A stretch of DNA of 20,608 bases from a virus: IMG/VR virus record IMGVR_UViG_3300013772_000053, positions 1 to 20,608 of that record; one strand, 5' to 3'. Each line of letters opens with the position of its first letter. Within the stretch, counting starts at the first letter, position 1. This document shows, piece by piece, positions 3,040 through 17,918 of the stretch. The notes below the pieces were generated by a model that saw only the letters and a program-made list of their open reading frames with translations, was not told the origin of the DNA and made no database searches. The translations under genes and the position numbers were made by a program.

Positions 3040-3521
3040 GAGTCCTCCTGGTCAATATGTCCACGGCTGCCGAGTAGCAGCGCGGTGAGTTCGTCCACGG
3101 TCATGAGCACGAACTGTTGCCCCGGCTTGGTGGTGCCGCGTCGTTTGGCGATGACGAGCCCGGCGAGCGCGTCGTCGTTCCCACGTTCCGTTTCGGCTTC
3201 CCCGATCCATTGGCCCGGCATGAGTCGGCCGCCATAGTCCTTGGCTTCAATCACTACGCGTCCGCCCATGTGCCGCAGCCCTCCAATGTCGCCGCGGTCC
3301 TGTGAGCCGGTTTTCACGCGACGGTCTATGCGGTCATCAACGACGGCGGCTAGGTGGTCCGCTATCAGTCGCTCGAAACTGGATCCAGCCTTCTTTGCTG
3401 ATACACGGGAACGCTTGGGAACGCGCTTGCTAAGCGCCTCGCTTGTCACTCCCGGCACTTCCACCCCTCCAGCCCCTTCTGTCGCGTCTATGCCGTCTGC
3501 AAACTCGTGTGAGCGGGTCAT
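3036..3521 (-). CDS. PD-(D/E)XK nuclease, Holliday-junction-resolvase-like
   Basis: A 161-aa protein with a basic N-terminal tail (KRVPKRSRVSAKKAG). It then has SSFERLIADHL (E50), QDRGDIGGL (D78) and VVIEAKDYGG (E92-x-K94), the E...D...ExK catalytic set of a PD-(D/E)XK nuclease. Its size and order resemble small archaeal/phage Hjc-like resolvases. A phage with its own replication genes often carries one to resolve branched DNA before packaging. It lies downstream of DnaB and overlaps its neighbours by ATGA at both ends. Specific activity cannot be told from the sequence. Confidence 0.75.
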   Translation of the reverse strand: MTRSHEFADGIDATEGAGGVEVPGVTSEALSKRVPKRSRVSAKKAGSSFERLIADHLAAVVDDRIDRRVKTGSQDRGDIGGLRHMGGRVVIEAKDYGGRLMPGQWIGEAETERGNDDALAGLVIAKRRGTTKPGQQFVLMTVDELTALLLGSRGHIDQEDS

Positions 3522-3724: not shown

Positions 3725-3879
3725 GCGTCCTCCTTTGGGCATACAGAAGCCCCAGCGCTAACCGGGGCTTCGTGTCGATCCATGTCGTCAAGCACTTTCT
3801 CAAGGACCCTCTTGCCCATGGGTGTTATGTCGTCGGGGTAGATGAACCTGAGTGCGGCCCGGATTCGTTCGGTTCTCAT
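3721..3879 (-). CDS. Small unknown protein between dnaB and its downstream paralogue (52 aa)
   Basis: The frame runs from ATG 3879, overlapping the dnaB stop as ATGA, to TGA 3721, overlapping the next GTG start as GTGA, with no internal stop. The protein begins MRTERIRAALRFIYPDD and continues KRVLEKVLDDMDRHE; it looks helical and is not a known family. The exact junctions at both ends argue for translational coupling. A hairpin (3746-3771) is embedded in its 3' part. Confidence 0.72.
   Translation of the reverse strand: MRTERIRAALRFIYPDDITPMGKRVLEKVLDDMDRHEAPVSAGASVCPKEDA
3746..3771 (-). other. Intragenic hairpin GAAGCCCC/GGGGCTTC
   Basis: An 8-bp perfect stem with a 10-base loop inside the 3' end of the 52-aa gene, about 20 bases before the next gene's start. 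There is no U-run. It shares the GAAGCCCC stem with the hairpin at 772-804. It could tune expression after dnaB or be incidental. Confidence 0.4.
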
Positions 3880-5180
3880 GCGGCCTGCCTTAGCGCGTTT
3901 TGCGGTGTCGTGCCTTGGTCGAGGGCCTTCGAGTAGTGGCCCCAGAAGGTGAGTTGAGCGAGTCCTGTTGCGCCATGCCGATTCTTAGCAACGAGCATTG
4001 ACAGGTCGTTGCGCAGGTCGCCCATGATTTCGCGGTGCAGCAGGATGACAACGTCGGCGTCTTGTTCGACGGCGCCGGACTCGCGGAGGTCTGACAGCAT
4101 CGGCATCTTGTCGTTCCTGGACTCACTGGCCCGGTTGAGCTGCGAGAGTGCGATGACAGGTATCTGCATGTCCATTGCCATGATTTTGAGCTGCCTGGAC
4201 ATGTCCGCAACGAACTCATGCCGTGGCCGCTTGTCTCCGTGCGGTTGGGCCATGAGTTGCAGGTAGTCCACGACGAGGCCGGCCAACGGTTTGCGGCGGT
4301 TGACTGATCGGGCGAAGCGTTTGATGTCGGTTATGGTCACGCCGGATCGGTCATCCACGTAGAGCGGCACGTCGCCCCATGCTGCGCGGCGGTCCCGGAT
4401 CTTTGCCCAGTCGCCGGGGGTTAGGTTCCGTTCGATCAGCCTTGACACGTCGAGGTTGAGGTCTGCGGAGACTGCCCGGATCTGGACGTCGTTGTTGGAC
4501 ATTTCCAGCGACGAGAACGCCACTGATCCACGTTGCGCGAGTCCTTGCGCCAGGTTCAGAGCCACCACGGACTTACCCACTGAGGGACGTGCGCCGACGA
4601 CGTACAGCGCGCCCGGCCTGAGTCCGCCGATGATCGCATTGACCGCGGCCCATGGTGTCGGGTGGTGGTTGATTTCCTCATCCAACGTCCCGAGCATCGT
4701 GTCGATGGTTTCGCCGAATGACAGGACTGCTGATCCGGTAGCGCGTGAGGTCTGGTCAACCTCGCGCCGTGCCGCTTCGACAAGTTCATCAACGTCGCCG
4801 CCGCTGCCTGCGAGCTCCTGGATCTTCCTGCCCGCGCCCGTCAGCCGCCGCCTCGTGGCCGCGTGGGCGACTATCTCGGCGTAGTAGGCACCGGCACTAG
4901 CGGACGGGACTGATAGCGCCAGTTCGTGAGCGTATGCCGCGCCACCGATCCGGGATATCTCGCCCATGTTTGTTAGCGCGTCGTTGATGGTGATCGCGTC
5001 CACCGGCTTACCCGCGCCGTGAACCTCCAGGATCGTCCGGTAGATGGTCTCGTGTGCGGGCTGGTAGAAGTCGCCGCCGTCAAGAATGTCCGCGATGTCC
5101 GCTATGGCGTCCCGGCTGATGAGCATTGCGCCAAGGACGGATTGCTCGGCTACTGCGTCGTGGGTTTGTGGTTCGGTCAT
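3876..5180 (-). CDS. dnaB: Replicative DNA helicase, DnaB family
   Basis: A 434-aa hexameric 5'-3' helicase for phage DNA replication. The N-terminal DnaB domain (about 5-105, EQSVLGAMLIS) is followed by a linker and the RecA-like ATPase: Walker A GARPSVGKS at 196-204, catalytic Glu in SSLEM (E226), Walker B LVVDYLQLM at 302-310, SQLNR at 346-350, and DLRESGAVEQDADVVILLHR at 364-383. Length is close to bacterial DnaB. It lies downstream of the initiator gene, the order seen in many temperate phages (initiator then helicase). One copy of a small paralogous gene sits on each side. ATG 5180 overlaps the upstream stop. Confidence 0.96.
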   Translation of the reverse strand: MTEPQTHDAVAEQSVLGAMLISRDAIADIADILDGGDFYQPAHETIYRTILEVHGAGKPVDAITINDALTNMGEISRIGGAAYAHELALSVPSASAGAYYAEIVAHAATRRRLTGAGRKIQELAGSGGDVDELVEAARREVDQTSRATGSAVLSFGETIDTMLGTLDEEINHHPTPWAAVNAIIGGLRPGALYVVGARPSVGKSVVALNLAQGLAQRGSVAFSSLEMSNNDVQIRAVSADLNLDVSRLIERNLTPGDWAKIRDRRAAWGDVPLYVDDRSGVTITDIKRFARSVNRRKPLAGLVVDYLQLMAQPHGDKRPRHEFVADMSRQLKIMAMDMQIPVIALSQLNRASESRNDKMPMLSDLRESGAVEQDADVVILLHREIMGDLRNDLSMLVAKNRHGATGLAQLTFWGHYSKALDQGTTPQNALRQAA

Positions 5181-5377
5181 GGCTTCCTCGCGAGATCGCG
5201 GGCGGCGTCAGCGTGGCCGATCATCTGGCGCACTACCCGAATCAACTCTTTGCCGTAGACGGTGTATCCGTGAGTAGCTAGAGCATCAACGGCTCCGCGT
5301 ACCGTCTTGGCAGCCTCTTCATGCAAGTCGGCTGATGCTAGCAATGCTTCACGCTGGGCTTGGTTTAGTTCGCTCAT
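5177..5377 (-). CDS. Small helical protein, paralogue of the gene at 3518-3724 (66 aa)
   Basis: A 66-aa protein starting MSELNQAQREALLASAD. The first 17 residues are identical to the copy after dnaB, and nucleotide identity across the first 50 bases is visibly high. The middle has diverged (VRGAVDALATHGYTVYGKEL against INATCDRLATAGYTIYAKAL). ATG 5377 overlaps the stop of the initiator gene (ATGA). Function unknown; position between initiator and helicase makes a replication-accessory role worth testing. Confidence 0.75.
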   Translation of the reverse strand: MSELNQAQREALLASADLHEEAAKTVRGAVDALATHGYTVYGKELIRVVRQMIGHADAARDLARKP

Positions 5378-6129
5378 TTGTAGAAGTCCTTATTCCATGG
5401 GCTTGAGGCGGCGGGTTTGGTTATTGATGGTTTGGCTTTTTTTAGCCATGTAGTGAATGCGGCATTCCAGGAGACGCATAGTCTTCCGTGCGTAGCGGCG
5501 TGGAGCCTAAAGAATTCGGCTTGCTCAATGACATCCACTCCCTGCTGCTTTGCTCTTTCGATATGCGATGCAGTGGGCGCCCAGCTTTTGGGCAAGGGCC
5601 CCTCTCTCGTCCCTGCGTCTTCATCATCGGGAACGGCAAAGAGAGATGTCTCTGTCTCTGTCTCTGTCTCTGTCTCTGTCTCTGTCTCTGTCTTAGCTAG
5701 CGTTGTGCTAGAGCATTCGTCTAGCACGTGCTTAGCAGGTGCTTCCGTTTTGCTAGGCTCTTGCTTGGCTTTTGCTAGGCCACCCTTGCGCCCAGCCTCA
5801 CGTTTCCGCTCAATGTCGGCGGTTGTGGTCTGATGTTCAGCGAAGTCGTGGATCATCCAGCCGCCGTCGATGGGGATCCACGAGGGCCGGTCCGCGTCGT
5901 TTGAGGACAGTTCGGCAGCGACATCGGCGCCCCATTTGCGCTTCACTACGCGCTCATCCAGGAACCCGTCAGTGAGTTGGCGGCGTGAGTAGAGGGTTGA
6001 TTCAAAGAGGGCCCGGAATGCGGCATCGGACAAGAACATAATTTTCGTGTGCTCATCCATGCCAATATCGAATTTCGCGTAAAGGCGCCGATCTTTCCGC
6101 GTGGTGCTATCCGGGATAGAATCTCCCAT
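5374..6129 (-). CDS. Phage replication initiator / helicase-loading type protein
   Basis: A 251-aa protein of the phage replication-initiator class. The N-terminal about 100 residues (RRLYAKFDIGMDEHTKIMFLSDAAFRALFE...GGWMIHDFAEHQ) look like a winged-helix DNA-binding domain. A basic linker and an acidic Thr-Glu repeat follow. The C-terminal module (about 190-240, ending WNAAFTTWLKKAK) resembles DnaT-like helicase-recruiting domains. The start at 6129 is chosen because AAGGAG lies about seven bases upstream; the upstream ATG at 6144 has no such site, and the AAGGAG falls inside that extension. Its gene carries two repeat arrays (see 5647 and 5729). The role is inferred from architecture and its neighbour dnaB. 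Confidence 0.78.
   Translation of the reverse strand: MGDSIPDSTTRKDRRLYAKFDIGMDEHTKIMFLSDAAFRALFESTLYSRRQLTDGFLDERVVKRKWGADVAAELSSNDADRPSWIPIDGGWMIHDFAEHQTTTADIERKREAGRKGGLAKAKQEPSKTEAPAKHVLDECSSTTLAKTETETETETETETETSLFAVPDDEDAGTREGPLPKSWAPTASHIERAKQQGVDVIEQAEFFRLHAATHGRLCVSWNAAFTTWLKKAKPSITKPAASSPWNKDFYK
5647..5693. repeat. Hexanucleotide tandem repeat, about 7.8 units of TGTCTC
   Basis: Seven perfect TGTCTC units and one partial one (TGTCT, cut short by a final T where the seventh unit has C). On the coding strand this is GAGACA, encoding Glu-Thr pairs in the linker of the initiator. Because the unit is six bases, slippage would lengthen or shorten the linker by dipeptides without a frameshift. 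Confidence 0.97.
5729..5783. repeat. Five 11-bp phased iteron-like repeats (origin candidate)
   Basis: TGCT begins at 5729, 5740, 5751, 5762 and 5773, an exact 11-bp period. The last three units read TGCTAGGCTCT, TGCTTGGCTTT and TGCTAGGCCAC. An 11-base period is out of register with codons, so the pattern is not a protein repeat. It lies inside the initiator gene, as lambda ori lies inside gene O. Origin function is inference. Confidence 0.6.
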
Positions 6130-6150
6130 AGCTGACTCCTTCATCTTTAG

Positions 6151-6456
6151 TCAGTCAGGCCCCGGGGTTCGTGTTGATAGCACGTCCGGGGCCGTTTTAT
6201 TTGGCCTCGTACTACCAATTTTCTCAGCCGCAATGTTTGTTTCCCAAACCGTTTGAGCGTGTTCTTGTAGCGGTCGCATGAACTCACGGGCGTGCGCGGC
6301 TTTGCATGCATCGCACTGTTTCCTTTTCCAGCGGTAATGCTGCATATAGCCCTCTTCGGTGCCGCATAACTCGGCCCGGAATGTGGGAGGCCTTCCGGTG
6401 CTCTTGTATTTGAGCGGCACGTGCGGCTGATCGCCCTTATAGATGTAGCCGGGCAT
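6151..6456 (-). CDS. CHCC-motif protein, single repeat (101 aa)
   Basis: A 101-aa basic protein starting MPGYIYKGDQPHVPLKY. It contains one copy of C-x8-H-x7-C-x2-C (LCGTEEGYMQHYRWKRKQCDAC), the same motif found twice in the gene just upstream, so the two are probably related by duplication. The spacing suggests a single zinc site. ATG 6456 overlaps the previous TAA by one base. The longer frame to 6591 overlaps the real upstream gene. Function unknown; nucleic-acid binding is likely but unproven. Confidence 0.72.
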   Translation of the reverse strand: MPGYIYKGDQPHVPLKYKSTGRPPTFRAELCGTEEGYMQHYRWKRKQCDACKAAHAREFMRPLQEHAQTVWETNIAAEKIGSTRPNKTAPDVLSTRTPGPD

Positions 6457-6827
6457 TATGCGGCCACCTGGCGTTGCTTCTTGCGGCCGGCGCGGTATGC
6501 GTTCATGTAGTCCGCGTGTGCTACCAGGCAGGCCGCGCAGGGCTTCACGCTGGTAATGATGTGCTTTCGGTAGCCTGAGTATGTCCCGCACAGGTTAGGC
6601 GTGAATACGGTCTTGCGAGGCCGATCCTTGGTGCGTTCGTAGTAGTCCCGTGAGTAAGCGGATTGTGCTTCGAGGCAGTCCTGGCACGCGGGAACCCTGT
6701 GTTTCTGGTGCCGCCGATAGCCTGCGTATGTTCCGCACGCTGACGGGTCGAACCCTTCGAGTTTCGTTGCGCGGGTCGGCACCTGTTCTTTGACGTCGCG
6801 GACAGTCCCGCGGTACTTGTAGCTCAT
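6456..6827 (-). CDS. CHCC-motif protein, two repeats (123 aa)
   Basis: A 123-aa basic protein with two copies of C-x8-H-x7-C-x2-C: CGTYAGYRRHQKHRVPACQDC at about 31-51, then CGTYSGYRKHIITSVKPCAAC at about 80-100. Each is followed by Ala-rich helix and Tyr (CLEAQSAYSRDY, CLVAHADYMNAY). The CGTxxGYxxH...CxxC pattern recurs in actinophage genomes without an assigned function. ATG 6827 overlaps the preceding stop as ATGA. A small zinc-finger DNA- or RNA-binding protein is the best reading. Confidence 0.75.
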   Translation of the reverse strand: MSYKYRGTVRDVKEQVPTRATKLEGFDPSACGTYAGYRRHQKHRVPACQDCLEAQSAYSRDYYERTKDRPRKTVFTPNLCGTYSGYRKHIITSVKPCAACLVAHADYMNAYRAGRKKQRQVAA

Positions 6828-15008: not shown

Positions 15009-15203
15009 CTAGCGAGTCGGCTGCTTTACGAGCCAGGCCTGTACGGCTTCGGGGCTGTAACGGACGAGGCCGCCGATCCGGACGAACTCCGGGCCCTTCT
15101 TGTTTGTCCGCCAGTTGGCGATGGTTCCGGCTGATACCTGCCACATGCGGGCTAGGTCGTCGGGGGTGAGGTACTGGATTCCGACTGCCGGCGACTCGCT
15201 CAT
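15009..15203 (-). CDS. AlpA/excisionase-like HTH protein
   Basis: A 64-aa MerR-type winged-helix protein (HTH_17): YLTPDDLARMWQVSAGTIANWRTNKKGPEFVRIGGLVRYSPEAVQAWL. The helix-turn-helix is at about 15-32 and the wing Arg-x-Gly-x-x-Val-Arg-Tyr at 42-50. Such proteins act as excisionase or transcription regulator. As the integrase lies on the other strand nearby, directing excision at attP is the likely role. ATGA overlap with the Cro-like gene means it is made only when the early promoter is active. Confidence 0.85.
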   Translation of the reverse strand: MSESPAVGIQYLTPDDLARMWQVSAGTIANWRTNKKGPEFVRIGGLVRYSPEAVQAWLVKQPTR

Positions 15204-15466
15204 GCTGCTTCCTGAGCGAAGGCTTCCGGAAGGAGCGCGTAGGGGTGGACTTCCAGTGCGGCGGCGATAGCCTCGAGATGCGAAATACTAAGGCTACGGT
15301 GGCCCGTGGTGCCACCTTTAATGCTGCGGTATAGCGTGCGGTAGGGGATGCCGGTTTCATTAGAGAGGCCCAGGATGCTCATCTTTGCTTCGGCGAGTCG
15401 GGCGGCGATCAGGCTTGCAACTTCGGTGTCTGTGGCGGCGGTTTCGCCGGTCTGTGGATTAGCCAT
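15200..15466 (-). CDS. XRE-family regulator, Cro-like
   Basis: An 88-aa XRE helix-turn-helix protein, first gene of the leftward early operon. The HTH spans about 17-65 (VASLIAARLAEAKMSILGLSNETGIPYRTLYRSIKGG), with LEAIAAALEVHPYALL closing the domain. It faces a divergent XRE gene across a 140-base control region, the arrangement of Cro and CI. Its promoter (-35 TTGCAA, 17 bases, -10 TATAGT) ends six bases before the ATG, so the transcript should be leaderless. Which of the two XRE proteins is the repressor is inferred from the strand: this one is read with the lytic genes. Confidence 0.86.
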   Translation of the reverse strand: MANPQTGETAATDTEVASLIAARLAEAKMSILGLSNETGIPYRTLYRSIKGGTTGHRSLSISHLEAIAAALEVHPYALLPEAFAQEAA

Positions 15467-15472
15467 ACGTCA

Positions 15473-15501
15473 ACTATAGGTAGTCGTATGGCTAATTGCA
15501 A
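15473..15501 (-). promoter_or_regulatory. Early leftward promoter, leaderless
   Basis: On the minus strand TTGCAA (15501-15496), a 17-base spacer, TATAGT (15478-15473), then six bases to the ATG of the Cro-like gene. This spacing puts the transcription start at or one base from the start codon. No Shine-Dalgarno is present, which agrees. Confidence 0.7.
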
Positions 15502-15523
15502 GTACTAATCCAAGTAGTTACAT

Positions 15524-15556
15524 TCGTGTCACTCGAGTACACGATTGGCATACTCG
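15524..15556. promoter_or_regulatory. Operator candidates in the switch region
   Basis: Two overlapping dyads. TCGTGT (15524-15529) and ACACGA (15539-15544) flank the palindromic core ACTCGAGT (15531-15538). CGAGTA (15534-15539) and TACTCG (15551-15556) form an inverted repeat with an 11-base spacer. A further pair GGCTAAT (15490) and ATTAGCC (15557) spans the region. They lie between the two -35 boxes, as expected for sites bound by the XRE proteins. Confidence 0.6.
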
Positions 15557-15569
15557 ATTAGCCGAATGG

Positions 15570-15599
15570 TTGCAAGCAGGGTCCATAACTGCCTAAGAT
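15570..15599 (+). promoter_or_regulatory. Repressor promoter, leaderless
   Basis: TTGCAA (15570-15575), an 18-base spacer, TAAGAT (15594-15599), then seven bases to the ATG at 15607. No Shine-Dalgarno precedes the gene, so a leaderless transcript is the simple reading. Confidence 0.6.
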
Positions 15600-15606
15600 T
15601 GCACGC

Positions 15607-15855
15607 ATGACAAGTTATGGCGAGAGTCTTGAAGCAGCGCTCTCAATTCAGATCAAAGTCGAACTAGCGGAACGCGGCATGGACCAGAAGGGTCTTGCGG
15701 ATGCCGTTGGAATCAATCGTGTGACGATGAGCCACTATATGACGGGCAAGCGCAGTATGCCACTGCCCACCTATTTCAAGGTGGCCGAGGCCCTGGGTCT
15801 TAGCGCTCGTGAGTTGATGCAGCGCACTGAGGCTCGTATTCATCCAGAAGGCTAG
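15607..15855 (+). CDS. XRE-family immunity-repressor candidate
   Basis: An 82-aa protein consisting mostly of one XRE helix-turn-helix (about 12-70: IQIKVELAERGMDQKGLADAVGINRVTMSHYMTGKRSMPLPTYFKVAEALGL). It has no C-terminal peptidase or oligomerisation domain, so it is much shorter than lambda CI, as is common for actinophage repressors. It is divergent from the Cro-like gene, on the integrase strand, and ends before a strong terminator. These features favour a lysogeny repressor. It could alternatively be the Cro, with the upstream minus gene as repressor. Confidence 0.83.
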   Translation: MTSYGESLEAALSIQIKVELAERGMDQKGLADAVGINRVTMSHYMTGKRSMPLPTYFKVAEALGLSARELMQRTEARIHPEG

Positions 15856-16199: not shown

Positions 16200-16472
16200 A
16201 TGGCCGTGCCATCAGGGAAAATGCAGGAGTCGGGGCCTTTTGCGCGGGCGATATCGGCAGAGATACGCGCAACGCTCGCCCGCCAGCGACTAACAGTCAA
16301 AGGCCTGGCGGGCATGTCAGGCCTGTCCGAAAGCTACCTAGGCAAAAGATTGCGCGACGTCGCGCCCCTGACACTCAATGACGTAGAGGCGATCTGCGAT
16401 GCGCTCGGGGAGAATCTATTGGCGTTCGCTGCGGCCGCACTGGAAGCCGCCCGCGATTCGGACCAGTCATGA
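16200..16472 (+). CDS. Second XRE-family regulator, coupled to integrase
   Basis: A 90-aa XRE protein: ARAISAEIRATLARQRLTVKGLAGMSGLSESYLGKRLRDVAPLTLNDVEAICDALGENLLAFAAAALEAARDSDQS, with the HTH at about 30-65. The stop overlaps the integrase ATG as ATGA, so the two are co-translated. The ATG at 16200 has only a weak AGG upstream; an in-frame ATG at 16221 with AGGGAAA close by is the alternative. A likely role is control of integrase or a repressor partner. An XRE gene directly fused in translation to int is a recurring actinophage layout. Confidence 0.8.
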   Translation: MAVPSGKMQESGPFARAISAEIRATLARQRLTVKGLAGMSGLSESYLGKRLRDVAPLTLNDVEAICDALGENLLAFAAAALEAARDSDQS

Positions 16473-17602
16473 GAGGCCGCGCCCCGCTCCCGATCGGCAC
16501 GAGTGGGCAGGTTTCATACTCAGGGCCGAAGGGTAAGATTACCGCCCTTACCCGCTTCCGGGATTTCGACGGGGTTACGCGTCGGGTATCCGCGCAGGGT
16601 ACGTCCAAGGCGGCTGCTGATGCTGCGTTAAAGGAGAAGCTGAAGGCGCGGACCCACCTGGGCGGGCTGGAACTCACGCGGGATTCAACGATCAAAGAGC
16701 TTTCGGAGCGCTGGCTGCCGACACTTACCCAGTCGCAGGCCACGCAGGACTCATACCGGCAGAAGGTCGAGCGGTACATCATCCCCGGCATGGGCGCGTG
16801 GAGGCTCTGGGAGGCCACTACAGGCCGGTGTGAGGCGTTCCTGACAACGCTACAGGCGTCGGCTCCGGCGATGGCTTCACAGAGCCGCGTAGTCCTATCG
16901 CTCATGCTCGGACTGGCGGTGCGTTACGACATCATCGACACTAATCCGGTGCGTGAAGTGATGATGCACGCAAAGGCGAAGAAGCACGTGTCAGCGCTCA
17001 CTGTTGAAGAGGTCCAAGAGTTGCGCCGGCACATTGCCCAATGGGCGAGCGAGAAGGCGGGCAGGGCGGCCACGCTTGACGCTATGGACATGTTCCTGGC
17101 TACCGGGCTGCGGCCGGGGGAGTTGCTGGCGTTGCAGTTCTCTGATGTGGATTTCCGGGCGGGCACTATCACCGTGACGGGGACGGTCAAGCGGGATTCT
17201 GCGAAGGGCCTGCACCGGCAGGCGTTCCCCAAGTCGGAGTCCGGTAAGCGAGTGCTGACACTGCCGCTGTTCGGGGTAGAGCTGTTGCGGCACCGGAAGT
17301 CCAGCGTTGACGGGGATCTCGTCTTCCCGAACCGCAACGGTGATGCGATGGAGCCGGCGAACTTCCGCAGGCTGTGGCGTGAGGCCCGCGGCGATACGTG
17401 GGATGCCGTCAAGCCCTCATCATTCCGTAAGGCCGTGGCGACACTCATTGAGCGGGAGAGCGGTTCACTTATCGCTTCCCGGCAGCTTGGTCACAGCTCG
17501 GACACGATCACGAAGAAGCACTACATTGAGCGGAACCGGAACGCACCTGACTCGTCGCTAATTCTGGAGCAGTTGAACCAGCGAGTCACGCTGGTCCAAT
17601 AA
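16469..17602 (+). CDS. int: Phage integrase, tyrosine recombinase
   Basis: A 377-aa tyrosine recombinase that inserts and excises the phage at attP. The N-terminal arm-binding domain (about 1-65) is followed by a core-binding SAM-like domain (about 75-160) and the catalytic domain. Catalytic residues: R215 in TGLRPGELLAL, K255 in FPKSESGKR, R320 in SSFRK, H342 in LGHSS and nucleophile Y352 in HYIERN. The first His of the canonical HxxR box is replaced by Ser (S317), a substitution tolerated in many actinobacterial phage integrases. It starts by overlap with the XRE gene and ends 27 bases before the first arm-type repeat. Confidence 0.95.
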   Translation: MRGRAPLPIGTSGQVSYSGPKGKITALTRFRDFDGVTRRVSAQGTSKAAADAALKEKLKARTHLGGLELTRDSTIKELSERWLPTLTQSQATQDSYRQKVERYIIPGMGAWRLWEATTGRCEAFLTTLQASAPAMASQSRVVLSLMLGLAVRYDIIDTNPVREVMMHAKAKKHVSALTVEEVQELRRHIAQWASEKAGRAATLDAMDMFLATGLRPGELLALQFSDVDFRAGTITVTGTVKRDSAKGLHRQAFPKSESGKRVLTLPLFGVELLRHRKSSVDGDLVFPNRNGDAMEPANFRRLWREARGDTWDAVKPSSFRKAVATLIERESGSLIASRQLGHSSDTITKKHYIERNRNAPDSSLILEQLNQRVTLVQ

Positions 17603-17628
17603 TCCCCACGCTGGTTAACCGTTCAAAC

Positions 17629-17647
17629 GACGACTAAACGACGAGTA
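17629..17647. repeat. attP arm-type repeat, left copy
   Basis: GACGACTAAACGACGAGTA, identical to 17900-17918. Inside it ACGACTA and ACGAGTA form a close tandem pair, as for two integrase arm sites. It lies between int and the tRNA-like core. Confidence 0.8.
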
Positions 17648-17756: not shown

Positions 17757-17899
17757 CCCGAATAGTGCAACTGTTGCATAGTCCACGGACGTCCACGATA
17801 ATGCCCTAATGCCCATTCAAAAAACGCGGAATGACGCGGAATTGGGCCACGTTAAATCACCTACCCCCACGTTAGTTCATGACTCACCACGGATTAAAA
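17757..17899. other. Distal attP arm region with short direct repeats
   Basis: About 140 bases without a gene. It holds two copies of GTCCACG (near 17781 and 17790) and two of GACGCGGAAT-like sequence (near 17822 and 17833). These may be extra integrase, Xis or host-factor sites of the P' arm. Confidence 0.5.
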
Positions 17900-17918
17900 G
17901 ACGACTAAACGACGAGTA
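17900..17918. repeat. attP arm-type repeat, right copy
   Basis: Second exact copy of the 19-bp arm repeat, on the far side of the tRNA-like core in the same orientation. Two copies flanking the core show the attP is complete. Confidence 0.8.

Follow-up and report, generated by a model that had tools for sequence, protein, structure and literature searches.

A helically phased repeat array within the linker of an actinophage initiator gene as a probable replication origin

Inside a gene for a replication initiator the tetramer TGCT recurs at exact steps of 11 bp, and this raises the question which function such repeats serve as DNA in a stretch that also encodes a protein. For most actinobacteriophages the origin has, to our knowledge, yet to be mapped. 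The window, i.e., the whole stretch of DNA that was analyzed, comprises the 20,608 b of one whole virus record and is probably a fragment of a temperate actinophage. As this 20.6-kb record probably represents an incomplete virus genome, an origin might also lie outside of it. We nevertheless assign a probability of roughly 85% to the reading that positions 5640–5778 constitute the replication origin of the phage, placed inside the gene of its own initiator, in the linker region. The features on which the analysis is based are the following:

3876–5180, minus strand: gene for a DnaB-like replicative helicase, located downstream of the initiator gene (DnaB_C, E=1.8e-71; phrog_19, E=3.9e-94)
5374–6144, minus strand: replication initiator gene, 256 aa (phrog_22834, E=1.5e-38; phrog_3926 'replication initiation protein', E=1.3e-15)
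5431–5598, minus strand: C-terminal three-helix DnaT-like domain (Pfam DnaT, E=0.0093, below the cut-off; AlphaFold2 helices 192–236)
5640–5653, minus strand: weak inverted repeat, AGAGA(CATC)TCTCT, where the tract ends on its 3' side; detected in L043, a close relative, and recognizable in the window
5647–5693, minus strand: hexanucleotide tract, read as (GAGACA)7.8 on the coding strand and translated as TETETE... (TRF; repeat TGTCTC on the plus strand)
about 5694–5778, minus strand: iteron array, coding-strand AGCA sites plus reverse sites
5729–5776, plus strand: five-unit run of TGCT at exact 11-bp steps, starting at 5729, 5740, 5751, 5762 and 5773
5830–6072, minus strand: N-terminal winged-helix domain, residues 25–105 (AlphaFold2 pLDDT >90; helix-strand-helix-helix-strand-strand)
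16469–17602: tyrosine integrase gene

The initiator gene and its surroundings

The open reading frame encodes 256 aa from the first ATG and 251 aa from the second in-frame ATG, the latter being the length given in the initial annotation. By homology and by the neighboring DnaB-like helicase gene the protein belongs to the actinophage 'RepA-like replication initiator' family (phrog_22834/3926). Curtobacterium phage Kithara and Gordonia phage Birdsong have homologues that carry this annotation and are likewise encoded upstream of a DnaB-like helicase, and a search of phage DNA resulted in a single distant match, Kithara. The Pfam scan of the initiator gave neither a match to Phage_rep_O nor to the plasmid RepA_N and iteron Rep families, the sub-threshold DnaT hit being the only one. 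In the AlphaFold2 model, calculated from a 66-sequence alignment, the linker between both domains is disordered (residues 138–178), exactly where the DNA element lies. The N-terminal winged-helix domain is the predicted iteron binder and the C-terminal domain presumably the module contacting the helicase. Structure matches of the N-terminal domain in the PDB were weak, with the plasmid Rep-DNA structures 4pql (Z 6.6) and 5kbj (Z 5.9) among generic winged helices, and a PDB sequence search with the profile of this domain yielded nothing relevant; matches in BFVD were phage replisome organisers and helix-turn-helix proteins.

Several further features of the window were observed. Downstream of the integrase gene, 11-bp direct repeats of the sequence AAACGACGA(C/G)T occur in two pairs, at 17625–17646 and 17896–17917, about 260 bp apart; they are probable integrase arm sites flanking attP. 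The least stable 150 bp of the window, positions 15450–15599, are located between the divergent regulatory genes 15200–15466 (minus strand) and 15607–15855 (plus strand) and are probably a lysogeny control region. The product of 6456–6827 contains repeated cysteine motifs and matches WhiB-like/HNH phrogs, and the overlapping open reading frame 6151–6591 encodes a similar cysteine motif. An Rfam scan of the window resulted only in a tRNA.

Phased iterons and a short tandem repeat selected as DNA

The run of five TGCT units is the sole run of at least five in the 20,608-b window when all tetramers at all spacings of 7–24 bp are considered. Counting any tetramer at any spacing that is not a multiple of three, 3000 trials of synonymous recoding with the codon usage of the record never produced a run of five, and 3000 trials of synonymous codon shuffling within the gene produced one in 2 cases. 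The exact 11-bp phasing at five positions, as initially described, is confirmed, as is the argument that a period not divisible by three does not originate from a repeated peptide. The same holds for the two longer sequences described for three units, with TGCTAGGC present at 5751 and 5773 and TGCTTGGC at 5762. Moreover, a 20-bp two-unit pattern matched twice in the window compared to 0 expected matches (100 shuffles). A second comparable array was not found in the window, where the other repeats are two-copy or integrase-flanking ones only.

The five units initially described are part of a larger element, whose remaining parts had been missed: a sixth TGCT at 5706, the reverse-oriented AGCA sites and the TGTCTC tract. 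The coding-strand AGCA sites of the array correspond to TGCT on the plus strand at 5706, 5729, 5740, 5751, 5762 and 5773, and the reverse-oriented sites to AGCA on the plus strand at 5712, 5723 and 5734, again in 11-bp steps. The sites occur in both orientations with a consensus of about CTAGCAAAWGC, and only the units at 5723–5732 and 5734–5743 are palindromic or nearly so. The coding-strand sequence of the linker is CTAGCAAAAGC CAAGCAAGAGC CTAGCAAAACG GAAGCACCTGC TAAGCACGTGC TAGACGAATGC TCTAGCACAACG CTAGCTAAG, followed by (ACAGAG)n. The hexamer tract with its 7.8 copies adjoins the iteron array and is part of the same conserved element.

Two scans of viral contigs resulted in 30 and 60 homologous loci, which partly overlap. 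In 19 close homologues the fraction of the major codon in columns with a conserved residue is 0.94 in the linker vs. 0.69 in the N-terminal domain (Mann-Whitney p=7e-9, which is indicative only as it ignores shared ancestry), and within residues 131–158 every codon of a conserved residue is identical. The N-terminal domain beside the linker is better conserved as a protein, yet it varies synonymously. The comparison of the phasing at synonymous sites in homologues, set beforehand as the check that could overturn the origin reading, thus gave the same codon nearly everywhere in the linker in 19/19, i.e., the phasing is kept, and together with the failed synonymous shuffles the near-invariant linker codons bear out the proposed selection on DNA. 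In 55 distinct linkers, AGC sites lie preferentially 11, 22–23, 34, 45 and 56 bp from one another, which shows that each helical turn holds one site, also in linkers with single steps of 10, 12 or 13 bp. The initial annotation's unit per helical turn is retained; as the spacing is 11 bp in the window and 10–13 bp in some relatives, a step of one turn describes the array better than a fixed 11 bp.

Arrays of the hexamer, (AGAGAC or AGAGTC)n, are present in the linker of 40 of the 60 homologous loci and at 0 positions elsewhere in 336 kb. In the Thr/Ser-Glu runs threonine is encoded by ACA in 177/180 cases vs. 185/846 (22%) elsewhere in the same genes (p=6e-91, again indicative only, with shared ancestry ignored), and glutamate by GAG in 155/163. 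The copy number of the hexamer differs among relatives, and the same hexamer was found in phages whose initiator protein is only about 50% alike. Scanning the whole collection with TAGCNNAGACAGAGACAGAGACA gave 24 contigs; in 22 of them initiator motifs are present in the open frame, and the remaining two, L117 and L124, are also initiators when read by eye. Other tracts take the place of the hexamer in further loci: L079 carries a 7-bp (TACAGAG)n tract, L015 and L016 carry 5-bp CCCGA and CCCGT tracts, and L002, L017 and L028 carry tracts of the CTACCT, CTACTT or ACATCT type, the initiators of the latter five loci sharing only the C-terminal domain and having other N-terminal domains. As periods of 5, 7 and 11 are not multiples of three, repeated peptides are excluded as their source.

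The iterons are independent of the C-terminal module. The close clade contains at least two types of C-terminal domain, and the identity of the linker DNA is 0.84 between types vs. 0.85 within types; the C-terminal domains diverge directly after the hexamer tract, with linkers up to 97% identical. The fact that a swap of the C-terminal domain leaves the linker identity unaffected indicates that the iterons travel with the DNA-binding domain.

The window's tract appears to be of low stability and has a strong strand asymmetry. The 100-bp stretch 5618–5717, which holds the tract, is the fourth least stable of the window (z=2.75), other stretches, chiefly 15450–15599, being less stable. With 47.5% GC the tract is not strictly AT-rich. 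It is a candidate for the site of unwinding or of strand-specific single-strand binding.

Hairpins, a possible mechanism and rival readings

Many relatives have a perfect inverted repeat downstream of the tract with a fixed loop of the C(TRAM)G type. As these hairpins were chosen by complementarity, the frequency of hairpins and the type of loop elsewhere served as control instead of covariation. The linkers (15.6 kb) contain 20 stems of at least 7 bp, 19 of which have the loop C(TAAC)G, C(TAAA)G, C(TAC)G, C(TGAC)G or C(TAGC)G, whereas outside the linkers (336 kb) such a loop is present in 1 of 31 stems of this length. The stems vary between phages and the loop is constant. In other initiator families TAAA or TTC loops are found at the equivalent position. 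A perfect hairpin with the constant loop (TAAC, TAAA, TAC, TGAC) was observed directly 3' of the tandem repeat in L064, L065, L066, L068, L071, L072, L076, L078–L080, L083, L085, L086, L090 and L096, and also in L014–L016. In L015 (about 3420–3460) and L016, which have a different N-terminal domain, it is a TAAA-loop hairpin that follows the CCCGA/CCCGT tandem repeats.

A strong hairpin was not found in the window, where the best stem near the tract has 5 bp and is no better than those of synonymous shuffles. Most of the closest relatives are without it as well, L052 having one, and for this reason the hairpin is not claimed for the window. The weak repeat at 5640–5653 is a possible counterpart of the strong hairpin of the relatives. 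DNA hairpins are unusually stable when a C-G pair closes a GNNA or GNA loop, and the template strand carries loops close to these types, GTTA, GTCA, GCTA, GTA, GAA or TTTA. The folding model prefers one strand only slightly, by 0.4 kcal/mol for GNNA-type loops and not at all for others. Since it barely separates the strands, the idea of a template-strand hairpin depends on studies of DNA loops.

Dozens of related phages retain the same codons for these one-turn repeats, which makes the array very probably the start of genome copying. We infer binding, unwinding and initiation at this putative origin, which would proceed as follows. The N-terminal winged-helix domain would bind the AGCA/TGCT iterons, of which each helical turn has about one, and so build up a nucleoprotein array, the strain of which would open the adjoining (GAGACA)n tract. 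The opened repeats may then be held on one strand by the initiator or the helicase, and the C-terminal DnaT-like domain would recruit the phage DnaB-type helicase encoded downstream. At 5.7 kb, a clear switch of the GC skew is not seen.

The array could alternatively be an autoregulatory operator at which the initiator or another phage repressor binds inside the gene and blocks transcription or limits the level of initiator, replication starting elsewhere. The unique phased run, the linker codons and the AGC phasing support such a binding site equally, and iteron proteins commonly autoregulate. However, operators usually overlap the promoter and the array lies about 370 bp inside the gene; furthermore, an operator leaves the conserved hexamer or pentamer tract and the hairpin beside the iterons as well as the lambda-like layout unexplained, so that we regard this function as unlikely. 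Even less credit is given to the view that replication slippage and a low-complexity, disordered linker rich in Ala, Lys, Thr and Glu brought about the repeats as a by-product, with no role of the DNA. The predicted disorder and the copy number of the hexamer, varying among relatives as slippage would produce, agree with it, but the 11-bp period is no multiple of a codon, the conservation of codons exceeds that of the protein, the same hexamer recurs in phages about 50% alike in the protein, and 5- and 7-bp tracts substitute for it in other initiators.

The abrupt change of C-terminal domains right after the tract, next to linkers of up to 97% identity, would be expected if the repeats chiefly were a recombination joint for the exchange of initiator N- and C-terminal modules. 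Such swapping is expected at any conserved tract, though, and a joint explains neither the helical phasing nor the iteron classes specific for N-terminal clades, making this proposal just as improbable as slippage. Finally, the array resembles a partition centromere, as the parS loci of actinophages consist of short direct repeats arranged in arrays (PMC7157519). The window encodes a tyrosine integrase, ParA or ParB were not recognized among the scanned proteins, and the array is within the initiator gene in every homologue, all of which speaks against a centromere to such an extent that we consider it the most improbable function of all. The origin proposed in the initial annotation is hence the reading supported by codon-level conservation and helical phasing, the role as origin being deduced from these.

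The replication origin would be a precise, testable prediction for a large family of initiators, including those of phages growing on Mycobacterium smegmatis and Gordonia terrae, and it would provide a rule for finding origins, namely to look in the linker region of initiator genes for a helically phased array with a short tandem repeat behind it. Such relatives are the Mycobacterium phages ThulaThula and Typha (M. smegmatis mc2 155) and the Gordonia phages Asapag and Catfish (G. terrae). Moreover, one stretch of DNA could both encode a protein linker and form the binding platform of that protein. An origin cassette of these three parts, hairpin included, may be widespread among actinophages in general. 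More specifically, phased iterons, a 5–7-bp one-strand tandem repeat and a hairpin might form a modular cassette in the disordered linkers of many otherwise unrelated actinophage initiators, with the fixed-loop hairpin acting as single-stranded DNA in the opened origin; we hold this tentatively, at slightly less than even odds. If true, the hairpin would place, e.g., the helicase or primase, and the origin type would be conserved across initiator families while the iterons diverge.

Comparison with known origins

A description of the element was not found in the open-access papers searched. Among known systems, the origins of lambda and Stx phages are located inside gene O and are composed of iterons and an AT-rich tract (PMC7466680). 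As in these lambdoid phages, the iterons occupy a central part of the initiator gene that separates the DNA-binding from the helicase-recruiting domain, a tract that may open easily lies on one side of them, and their number varies among relatives, altering the protein linker (PMC7466680). The parallel to the lambda origin drawn initially, with a different iteron length, therefore stands and is extended by the repeat tract of apparently low stability and, in many relatives, by the hairpin. In contrast to the 19-bp imperfect inverted repeats of lambda (PMC7466680), the iterons described here are of about 11 bp at one-turn spacing, and instead of an AT-rich tract there is a (GAGACA)n tract of 47% GC. 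Also unlike lambda, a separate P loader was not recognized next to the helicase gene. Without a Phage_rep_O match and with different iteron length and tract, the initiator is not a member of the lambda O family, although the element would work like the lambda origin.

Plasmid Rep proteins bind one strand of the repeated DUE sequence (PMC4081077). The element would resemble iteron plasmids of the RK2 oriV/TrfA type in having tandem sites beside a short-repeat tract that is needed on one strand and a winged-helix initiator, predicted in our case (PMC4081077). It differs from them as it lies within coding sequence and contains hexamers rather than 13-mers (PMC4081077), and as the initiator combines one winged-helix domain with a DnaT-like domain rather than having two winged helices. 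For the RepA replicons of cluster A mycobacteriophages no repeats were found and the origin was guessed to be in or beside repA (PMC7157519). By their description these prophages are similar in that an actinophage initiator gene is sufficient for replication with the origin suspected in or next to it, whereas they are extrachromosomal parABS phages without reported repeats and the phage studied here carries an integrase (PMC7157519). The element differs from lambda-type origins in its iteron length and its tract, and its anatomy fits their arrangement, with the origin embedded in the initiator gene.
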